Shown here: in pieces, positions 3,252-40,602 of the stretch | How positions within the stretch are numbered: position 1 is the first letter of the stretch | Layout of the letters: the number at the start of each line of letters is the position of its first letter | Origin: Candidatus Bipolaricaulis sp. | GTDB taxonomy: Bacteria > Bipolaricaulota > Bipolaricaulia > UBA7950 > UBA9294 | Direction of reading: 5' to 3' | Assembly: GCA_028713635.1 (NCBI GenBank) | Contig: JAQTNX010000003.1 | Span: forward strand, 6,099-47,701 | Length of the DNA: 41,603 nt | Notes under the pieces: generated by a model | The model's database searches: none | What the model was told of the DNA's origin: nothing | What the model saw: only the letters and a program-made list of their open reading frames with translations | Program-made: the position numbers and the translations under genes

Positions 3252-3422
3252 GGCGGCAGGTTGTCGTCTGCCGGCGATCCTGGAGCTTCGGAGTTCGTCA
3301 AGCGAACTCCGAAGCAAGCGGATGACGAGACTGCAGTTCCGCCCACAAGCGCGGAACTGCCGAGCGACTCGATCTAGCACGAGTTCGGCGTAGCCGAACT
3401 CGCGAGCAACCCGAAGGGTTGC
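3252..3422 (+). repeat. Hairpin cluster I between tRNA-Gly and tRNA-Arg
   Basis: The spacer is almost wholly made of consecutive perfect stem-loops. CTTCGGAGTTCG (3286-3297) pairs with CGAACTCCGAAG (3303-3314). GCAGTTCCGC (3333-3342) pairs with GCGGAACTGC (3351-3360). CGAGTTCGGC (3380-3389), loop GTA, pairs with GCCGAACTCG (3393-3402). GCAACCC (3406-3412), loop GAA, pairs with GGGTTGC (3416-3422). A weaker CGGCAG/CTGCCG stem precedes them near 3254. None is followed by a T-run, so these are not ordinary terminators. The last pair (GTA-loop stem, then GAA-loop stem) matches the architecture of the insertion at 39951-39991. Confidence 0.85.
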
Positions 3423-3646: not shown

Positions 3647-3779
3647 GGAGTTCGCACAGCGAACTCCTTGGCTGTGATCGGATGAAGAAGGAGTCTGGGT
3701 GGCAGACTCCCGAGCGGTCGGATCAAGGAGAGGAGTTCTGCGCGGAAGCGCGGAACTCCCGAGCAACCCGAAGGGTTGC
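3647..3779 (+). repeat. Hairpin cluster II between tRNA-His and tRNA-Arg (TCG)
   Basis: Four consecutive stem-loops. GGAGTTCGC (3647-3655), loop ACA, pairs with GCGAACTCC (3659-3667). GGAGTCTG (3690-3697) pairs with CAGACTCC (3703-3710). GGAGTTCTGCGC (3732-3743), loop GGAA, pairs with GCGCGGAACTCC (3748-3759). GCAACCC (3763-3769), loop GAA, pairs with GGGTTGC (3773-3779). Stems starting GGAGT and ending ACTCC recur here and in clusters I and III with different inner sequence, so pairing is preserved while sequence drifts. No T-tracts follow. Confidence 0.85.
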
Positions 3780-3922: not shown

Positions 3923-3973
3923 GGAGTTCGCGACCTGTCGAACGGCGAACTCCCGAGCCGCACGAAGTGCGGC
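3923..3973 (+). repeat. Hairpin cluster III downstream of the tRNA terminator
   Basis: GGAGTTCGC (3923-3931) pairs with GCGAACTCC (3945-3953). It is followed after CGA by GCCGCAC (3957-3963), loop GAA, and GTGCGGC (3967-3973). The second stem occupies the place of the GCAACCC-GAA-GGGTTGC hairpin in clusters I and II but has a different stem sequence, while the GAA loop and pairing are kept. Confidence 0.8.
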
Positions 3974-3981
3974 CAGGGGTC

Positions 3982-4000
3982 TCAAGTCCCTCCGGGCGTA
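3982..4000 (+). repeat. Duplicated 3' end of tRNA-Arg (TCG)
   Basis: TCAAGTCCCTCCGGGCGTA is an exact copy of bases 3840-3858, the T-loop, T-stem and acceptor 3' strand of tRNA-Arg (TCG). It is again followed directly by a GCGAGCGAGGGG terminator stem. The rest of the tRNA is absent. This could be an att-type direct repeat left by tRNA-targeted integration, or the remains of a duplicated tRNA plus terminator. Confidence 0.85.
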
Positions 4001-4002
4001 AG

Positions 4003-4036
4003 GCGAGCGAGGGGGCACTCCTGCCCCCTCGCTCGC
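4003..4036 (+). terminator. Second terminator-like stem, paralog of the one at 3859
   Basis: Perfect 15-bp stem GCGAGCGAGGGGGCA (4003-4017) with TGCCCCCTCGCTCGC (4022-4036), 4-base loop. The GCGAGCGAGGGG half matches the first terminator. It sits directly after the copied tRNA tail, so tail and terminator were duplicated together. Confidence 0.65.
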
Positions 4037-39257: not shown

Positions 39258-39262
39258 GAGGG

Positions 39263-40165
39263 TCAGGTCTTGCAATCACGCATCGTATTGCGGAGCCGTC
39301 GCCCATCGACGGCACGCACCCTCCGGCTGATGGTTGAGTAGTGAACGCCGAGGTGATCGGCGATCTCATGTTGTGTGTAGCGGTACTCAAGGTACGCGCG
39401 TGCGATGCCGGCGGCATCCTTCGGGTCGGTGACGAAGGCTGAGAGCGGCGGCCGACGGACCTGAACCTGGGTCTTCGGGATCTCGCGATCTGGAGCCAGC
39501 CCTGGCGCGTGTTCCTCGATGAACGCGTCGCTGCCGAGGTAGATCTGACCGCGGAGGTTCTCCCACACCGTCGCGCCACGGCCCTCGGAGACGAACTTCC
39601 GATAGGCTTTCTGCGCTTCCGCCTTTGATGCCGCGAACTGCTCGAGGATCCAGTCGGTGGTGAGGAACGAGGGCGCGTTCTCAAGACCGGCCGTGGCTCG
39701 GTAGCTTGACCATGGCCAGTCCTGAGTTCTGCGCACCATCTTGGCTCGCACCGGGTTCAGGATCACGTAGCGTGCCAGCTCGAGGAGATACGCGTCGCGC
39801 TCGACCAGGATGGCCTTGAACCGGCCTTGAAAGACGTGCCCCGTGCGCCGATGCCGCCGGTCGAACTCCTGCGTGTAGACGCCGTTCAGCTGTCGCATGC
39901 CGCGCGACAGCGTCGGATCGAGTGTCTCGATCAGAAGATGGTAGGTGGTTGGCGACGCTACGCGTCGCTAGTGGCGAACTGCGTTCGCCTTGGCGTTCTG
40001 GCAGTAGGCGTGGCACTGCCAGTTGAAGCGTTCGACGACCTGCGCAAGAACGTCAAGGAAGAGCTCTCGATCCGGGTCAACGAGAAAGACCTTCTCGCGT
40101 GCGTTGCCGCGGCAGGTCACGTGATAGACAGCTCCGGAGTACTCAACCCGAAGTGGACGAGCCAT
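39263..40165 (-). pseudogene. REP-associated Y1 transposase, broken in the HUH motif
   Basis: The N-terminal part (39968-40165) reads MARPLRVEYSGAVYHVTCRGNAREKVFLVD ... WQCHAYCQ. The rest (39263-39898 and just before) carries MRQLNGVYTQEFDRRHRRTGHVFQGRFKAILVERD, the catalytic-Tyr region ELARYVILNPVRAKMV, and a C-terminal helix-turn-helix (YTQHEIADHLGVHYSTISRRVRA). Between them the expected MPNHYHLL (HUH motif) is interrupted by a 41-bp hairpin pair (39951-39991) carrying a stop, and one extra base shifts the frame inside the motif. It is recently broken, since the remainder is well conserved. Confidence 0.88.
39951..39991 (-). repeat. 41-bp paired-hairpin insertion in the RAYT gene
   Basis: On the minus strand: GGCGAAC, loop GCA, GTTCGCC (39989-39973), then four bases, then GCGACGC, loop GTA, GCGTCGC (39968-39952). 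Both stems are perfect, 7 bp, with triloops. The design is that of the hairpin pairs in the tRNA spacers (for example the GTA-loop and GAA-loop stems at 3380-3422). The insertion point is the HUH codons of the transposase. Confidence 0.85.
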
Positions 40166-40211
40166 GGCCTCAGTCTAGCGCATTCGATGCGGCATTGCAA
40201 GACCTGACCCT

Positions 40212-40602
40212 ATCGCCTCGCCGCGCGCCAGCGGGTTTCGTCCACCAGAGCGATCATGGCGTGCAGTATCTGTCGATCAAGTACACCGAGCGGCTGGCGG
40301 AAGCGGGAATCGAACCGTCGGTGGGTAGCGTCGGCGATGCTTACGACAACGCCTTGGCGGAGACGATCATCGGCCTCTTCAAGACGAAGGTGATCGAGCA
40401 GCTGCGGCCGTGGCGCAACGCGATCGCAGTCGAGCTGGAAACGCTGAGTTGGGTCGAGTGGTTCAACAACCGGCGGCTTCTCGGACCGATTGGGAACATC
40501 CCGCCGGCGGAGTTCGAGGCGATGTACGATCAACAGGCGGCGAGTCTGGTCGCGGTGGCCGGACTCAGGTAACTCACCCTCCGGAAAACCCGGGGCGGTT
40601 CA
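40212..40602 (+). mobile_element. IS3-family transposase C-terminal fragment with right end
   Basis: FVHQSDHGVQYLSIKYTERLAEAGIEPSVGSVGDAYDNALAETIIGLFKTKVIE ... ELETLSWVEWFNNRRLLGPIGNIPPAEFE is the end of the IS3 OrfB integrase domain, with the second Asp (HQSDHG) and the Glu (NALAET) of the DDE triad. The first Asp part is missing: the RAYT element's right end at 40211 adjoins it. The stop is at 40570-40572. GGAAAACCCGGGGCGGTTCA (to 40602) has the TCA terminus typical of IS3 inverted repeats. Confidence 0.85.

Follow-up and report, generated by a model that had tools for sequence, protein, structure and literature searches.

The window, the whole 41,603-nt stretch of DNA analyzed here, contains a RAYT gene with a double hairpin inserted in it. 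The features of the gene and its insert are as follows.

39263..40165, minus strand: gene for a RAYT, a Y1 (HUH) transposase, whole apart from the insert
39260..39276, plus strand: terminal inverted repeat of the RAYT unit, GGGTCAGGTCTTGCAAT, read directly
40194..40210, minus strand: second terminal inverted repeat, exact 17-bp complement, read directly
39944..39997, minus strand: 54-nt stretch in place of 12 nt (ATGACGAACCAC) of the intact relative L023
39951..39989, minus strand: double-hairpin insert core, GGCGAACGCAGTTCGCCACTAGCGACGCGTAGCGTCGCC, 39 nt
39973..39989, minus strand: hairpin 1, GGCGAAC-gca-GTTCGCC
39969..39972, minus strand: linker ACTA, which is the family linker CNA with one base before it
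39952..39968, minus strand: hairpin 2, GCGACGC-gta-GCGTCGC
39968..39970, minus strand: in-frame TAG stop, made up of bases from the linker and from the hairpin 2 foot
39951, minus strand: final C of the insert core

The closest comparison was an intact RAYT (L023/L092) from genome G011, a member of another genus. It has no insert and shares 84% amino acid identity with the window protein over 286 residues. The L023 locus is above the Pfam PF01797 (Y1_Tnp) cut-off, and its HUH motif reads NHYHLL. The window copy is missing among the Pfam hits of its own genome. The 17-bp inverted repeats around the window gene have no relation to the hairpins; the flanks of other RAYT genes were judged by eye. 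A truncated integrase-core transposase ORF (40210-40572) adjoins the terminal inverted repeat, which looks as though that ORF had been the landing site of the RAYT unit.

Read on the minus strand from 39989 to 39951, the core is GGCGAAC-gca-GTTCGCC-ACTA-GCGACGC-gta-GCGTCGC-C. Both stems are 7 bp long without a mismatch, and the loops are GCA and GTA. Folded as single-strand DNA, the core had an energy of -16.4 kcal/mol (z = -5.1), which none of 200 shuffles equaled. Within 39944..39997 there are a few non-native bases in the left flank, then the double hairpin, and an extra C on the right. This C, together with left-flank bases that partly fail to match the intact gene, leaves the precise joints uncertain. 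The first-pass annotation had described a 41-bp block at 39951-39991. Its sequence, place, 7-bp stems, and loops stand; the core is 39951-39989, and by alignment the net gain over the intact L023 is 42 nt. The annotation had also named an assembly error as a way in which its reading could fail. This is ruled out, since the same block was found at the same codons in two further genomes. Alignment with the block-free L023 bears out the view of the block as a discrete unit, and we conclude that it is a real, discrete double-hairpin insertion.

In place of the MTNHYHLL of the relative, the window protein would have NAKANAVRH*RRVASPTTYHLL. The extra right-hand C turns NHYHLL into TTYHLL after the TAG. 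Judged from the reading frame, the HUH motif is inactivated by the stop and the lost histidine, in agreement with the earlier claim that the motif was lost. The dN/dS values of the two gene flanks were 0.05 (56 codons) and 0.12 (227 codons), and those between intact RAYT pairs were 0.13 to 0.18. Because the flank values are low, like those of intact pairs, the loss of function is recent.

The block was also retrieved from three further RAYT relics, where it lies before the same codons. These were L002 (genome G002), L003 (G011), and L004, which is a second RAYT copy in the window's own genome. A search of 100 genomes of the phylum with the 38-nt block pattern, allowing up to three mismatches, gave four matches. 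All were in RAYT genes at these codons, and the reversed control gave none. The empty site was seen in intact RAYTs, L023 among them. All genomes compared are draft MAGs.

The insert holds a TAG in all four RAYT copies and does not keep the reading frame open. L002 contains a TAA in addition to the TAG, and truncation or a frameshift affects both L003 and L004. The L003 insert adds 41 nt, compared with the net 42 nt of the window. L002 and L003 are identical over the 38-nt block, yet their flanks are mostly 55 to 77% alike. Hairpin 2 of the window copy differs from theirs on both sides of one stem pair. The extra C at the right joint is common to the window copy, L002, and L004 and is absent from L003. 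L002 looks mosaic, with a left side like L023 and a right side close to L003. In the L004 block, hairpin 1 is decayed (z = 0.09), as expected of an old pseudogene. A second double hairpin lies near the N terminus of the L002 (1242-1350) and L003 (169-300) relics, at the same place in both, diverged in sequence and antisense to the gene. A single hairpin after the QGR codons is common to L002 and L004.

A maximum likelihood tree was built from 330 flanking columns of the RAYT genes. The window copy groups with the insert-free L023 (96/88), and L004 groups with the insert-free L006 and L102 (96/97). The four carriers formed one group in 0% of bootstrap trees, and the supported branches need at least three changes. 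The flank tree thus rejects a single vertical origin of the insert, and since the carriers are not one lineage in it, the block moved between RAYT copies; homologous recombination among RAYT relics can mislead such a tree. We infer that the route was either the copying of short tracts or repeated insertion. The flanks of the carriers are no more alike beside the insert than farther away, so any copied tract would have to be shorter than about 70 bp. The first-pass annotation had counted intact relatives with the same block against its reading. Relatives with the block exist; every one is broken, and they do not form one lineage, which strengthens the case for mobility.

Double hairpins are also present in the tRNA spacers of the window.

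3380..3422, plus strand: double hairpin just 5' of tRNA-Arg(TCT), with loops GTA and GAA and linker CGA
3732..3779, plus strand: double hairpin just 5' of tRNA-Arg(TCG)
3923..3973, plus strand: double hairpin joined to a degenerate tRNA-Arg 3' fragment

These spacers and the RAYT insert have their architecture in common and differ in sequence, so that the two-stem layout pointed out earlier holds for both. At the orthologous place 5' of tRNA-Arg(TCG), G002 also carries a double hairpin, and its stem sequences are different. The double hairpin with the degenerate tRNA-Arg 3' fragment occurs once in the window (3923-4010) and twice in G002, including L134 (G002:C33). At about 9270-9520 of L134, the G002 versions of the tRNA-Pro and tRNA-Arg(TCT) from the window's cluster lack their 5' halves, and the hairpin spacer is also gone; this loss is either a deletion or an assembly fault.

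The architecture common to these elements is GG-hairpin 1-CC, a CNA linker, and GC-hairpin 2-GC, followed by C. The pattern GGAGTN{8,38}ACTCCCGAGC had 20 hits in the window's genome (G000) and 13 and 2 hits in the congeners G002 and G001, with none in their own controls. Elsewhere in the phylum, the GGAGT-pattern scan gave hits near the control level. The GGAGT form is nearly restricted to one genus of Bipolaricaulota. In a wider contig collection, the exact pattern occurred in 6 stretches from Bipolaricaulota and in 7 others of scattered origin, a number estimated to be close to chance. The matches in named genomes were a Candidatus Bipolaricaulota MAG from Lac Pavin sediment and one other. 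The HUH-site version has GGCGAAC as its foot and would be tied to the GGAGT family by architecture alone.

The stems are hypervariable but paired across elements. Stem positions 6 to 9, which lay outside what the GGAGT pattern fixed, were 86% paired, compared with 51% when the arms were dealt randomly (maximum of 66% in 2000 deals). In a scan of 674 kb, 34 distinct elements had GGAG or GGCGAAC feet; pairing among them is partly circular because the scan demanded stems, feet, and such a linker. Their linkers were CGA (26), CTA (3), CCA (2), ACTA (1), CCGA (1), and CCTA (1). The terminal C was present in 31/34, and the three-base loops were mostly GCA, GAA, or GTA. A loose scan of the 674 kb without the foot filter gave 44 hits, compared with 36 in the reversed control and 11 in the Markov control, and for that reason only the 34 distinct foot-bearing hits were kept. 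A strict scan (stems of at least 7, loops of 3 to 12) gave 13 pairs in 408 kb versus 3 to 5 in controls. These pairs are mostly chance, so the family is not a high-copy one. About 1.06 Mb of Bipolaricaulota DNA, part of which was chosen for bearing elements, contained 10 tight double hairpins (stems of at least 7, loops of 3 to 4, gap of 2 to 5); order-2 Markov controls contained 0.

Apart from tRNAs, the search for known RNA families gave two hits only, both under their gathering scores. The first-pass annotation had proposed looking for a target duplication. None was detected, the flanks matching no better within elements than between them at joints that are ambiguous. Four copies of a variant with the GGAGAAGCCA foot are packed into about 520 bp inside a long open frame (L123:7180-7700, G000:C41). 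One element (L063:1501-1554, G003:C84) is located between two ABC transporter genes, and its hairpin 2 contains a ribosome-binding-like GGAGG just before the next ATG.

An IS110-like transposase copy in the window's genome (L126:7967-8140, G000:C66) contains two elements near its 3' end. The copies on C4 (L048) and C40 (L205) of the same genome contain none. Filled and empty sites were therefore found for both RAYT and IS110. The C66 copy has a hairpin 2 whose left arm and loop look like native sequence and whose right arm is completed by five added bases. This hints that the hairpin may have been built by fold-back synthesis. In the gene for an M20 peptidase (dapE/argE-like), three genomes have palindromes, each different and each in frame, at one shared position in a surface loop (G000:C2:58292-59572 [L133, L155]; G002:C74 [L156]; G003:C8 [L159]). 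More distant relatives of this peptidase are much shorter at that position.

We consider it likely that the block is a small non-coding double-hairpin insertion element that recently entered and inactivated the RAYT gene. The double hairpin would have been inserted once at the HUH codons of a RAYT gene. It probably then spread mainly by short-tract recombination between RAYT copies; the extra C shared by 3/4 copies and the mosaic L002 favor copying. By architecture, the element belongs to a family of low copy number that is almost limited to one Bipolaricaulota genus; the HUH-site version is a subfamily found at that site only. What first mobilized it was probably a process at replication forks that acts on DNA in single-stranded form, as the fold and its feet are the sole conserved property. 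It is evident that such tiny hairpin elements spread and disrupt genes. The earlier suggestion that the hairpin pairs spread is thus upheld, by the same block in RAYTs of at least three backgrounds and by the empty and filled IS110 copies.

Each RAYT may instead have been entered independently, by a repeated site-specific (homing-like) insertion that recognizes the sequence around the NHYHLL codons. This is possible but doubtful. The same codons are occupied in at least three RAYT backgrounds, the block is at no other place in the 100 genomes, the flanks show no conversion, and the two-sided stem change between the window and L002/L003 also fits. Repeated entry does not account for the extra C common to three of the four copies or for the mosaic L002, and neither an independent source copy outside RAYT genes nor a candidate homing enzyme was found. 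It seems unlikely that the catalytic-motif codons of a transposase family are a repeated homing site for a non-coding double hairpin of 38 nt that lacks an enzyme and is kept in the product. Such an element would enter conserved codons as introns and inteins do, but unlike them it would encode no enzyme and would not be removed. HUH transposases of the IS200/IS605 and TnpAREP types are known to use hairpin substrates, and up to three sites in RAYT genes have been hit. It has been proposed for REPs that RAYT proteins mobilize them in trans; the same could hold for the double hairpins, with the window copy as a self-inflicted hit. We find this improbable. The 17-bp inverted repeats of these RAYTs are unlike the hairpins, and the GTAG/CGTC tag is absent. 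G030, G035, and G005 contain several RAYTs yet have 0 to 1 pattern hits. The first-pass annotation had placed the RAYT in a REP-moving family; movement of the hairpins by RAYT is not supported by G002, where there are 13 pattern hits and no RAYT above the Pfam cut-off.

Fold-back template switching (quasi-palindrome completion) might also produce the hairpins on the spot, with no transposition. The C66 hairpin, with its native-like left arm and loop and its five added bases, is consistent with this, as are stems that are hypervariable yet perfect and that differ at orthologous sites. A shared source is nevertheless needed for the feet, linker, and terminal C conserved over dozens of loci and for the identical 38-nt blocks of L002 and L003, which makes a purely local origin quite unlikely. 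Finally, it is highly improbable that the block is bypassed, spliced, or read through and that the RAYT still works. The net gain of 42 nt preserves the frame, the remaining ORF is intact and under purifying selection, and the UAG adjoins hairpins as it does in phage T4 gene 60. Continuous reading in frame would, however, give TTYHLL without the first HUH histidine. The gain in L003 is 41 nt, L002 has both TAG and TAA, and both L003 and L004 show truncation or a frameshift.

Most mobile DNA has its own or a borrowed enzyme that reads sequence. Here the fold and short conserved feet are kept and the stems are free, which points either to a mechanism that recognizes structure or to fold-back synthesis of DNA. 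With four block copies at one codon site in separate backgrounds, and with filled and empty IS110 copies in a single genome, it becomes possible to test how such elements originate and spread. The setting is an uncultivated phylum. A search of the open-access literature found no earlier description of Bipolaricaulota palindromes, which is not proof of absence.

Double-hairpin elements are present in fungal mitochondria. Sponge mitochondria contain repetitive hairpin elements that are intergenic (PMC2800124). The elements described here resemble mitochondrial ones in repeated invasion by structurally and compositionally divergent hairpins; those are organellar, and no homology is implied. Rickettsia palindromic elements are palindromic insertions inside protein genes (PMC3733652). 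The dapE-like gene keeps its reading frame as they do. They are usually in frame and tolerated, whereas the window RAYT copy has a stop that kills the motif.

REPs are defined by an unpaired GTAG or CGTC tag, and both stem variation within REP families and intragenic REP copies have been described (Di Nocera and colleagues, PMC3733652). Some RAYTs have flanking inverted repeats that are not REPs (PMC3733652). The elements are like the REP/BIME and RAYT systems (PMC3733652, PMC3116915) in having short paired palindromes, variable stems, dimers, intragenic copies, and a RAYT in the genome. Short palindromes, often dimers, are a REP trait that they share. They differ in that the unpaired tetranucleotide is absent from the linkers of the 34 elements, with no GTAG in the flanks, so the first-pass comparison with REPs fails at the tag. 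They are also low in copy number, in the tens (20 exact-pattern hits in the window's genome). Each consists of two unlike hairpins, always in the same order and joined by a 3-nt linker, and the window RAYT gene is not flanked by hairpins.

The small dispersed repeats (SDRs) of cyanobacteria described by Elhai et al. in 2008 are reportedly very small and structured, with compensatory stems. They are said to lie often inside tandem oligomer tracts and to be mobile without a known enzyme. By that description, the elements resemble SDRs as very small structured repeats with compensatory stems. SDRs differ in belonging to another phylum, in their length of 21 to 27 nt, and in being single structures. 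The elements are REP/SDR-like small palindromic elements without a GTAG or CGTC tag, and we file them as neither.
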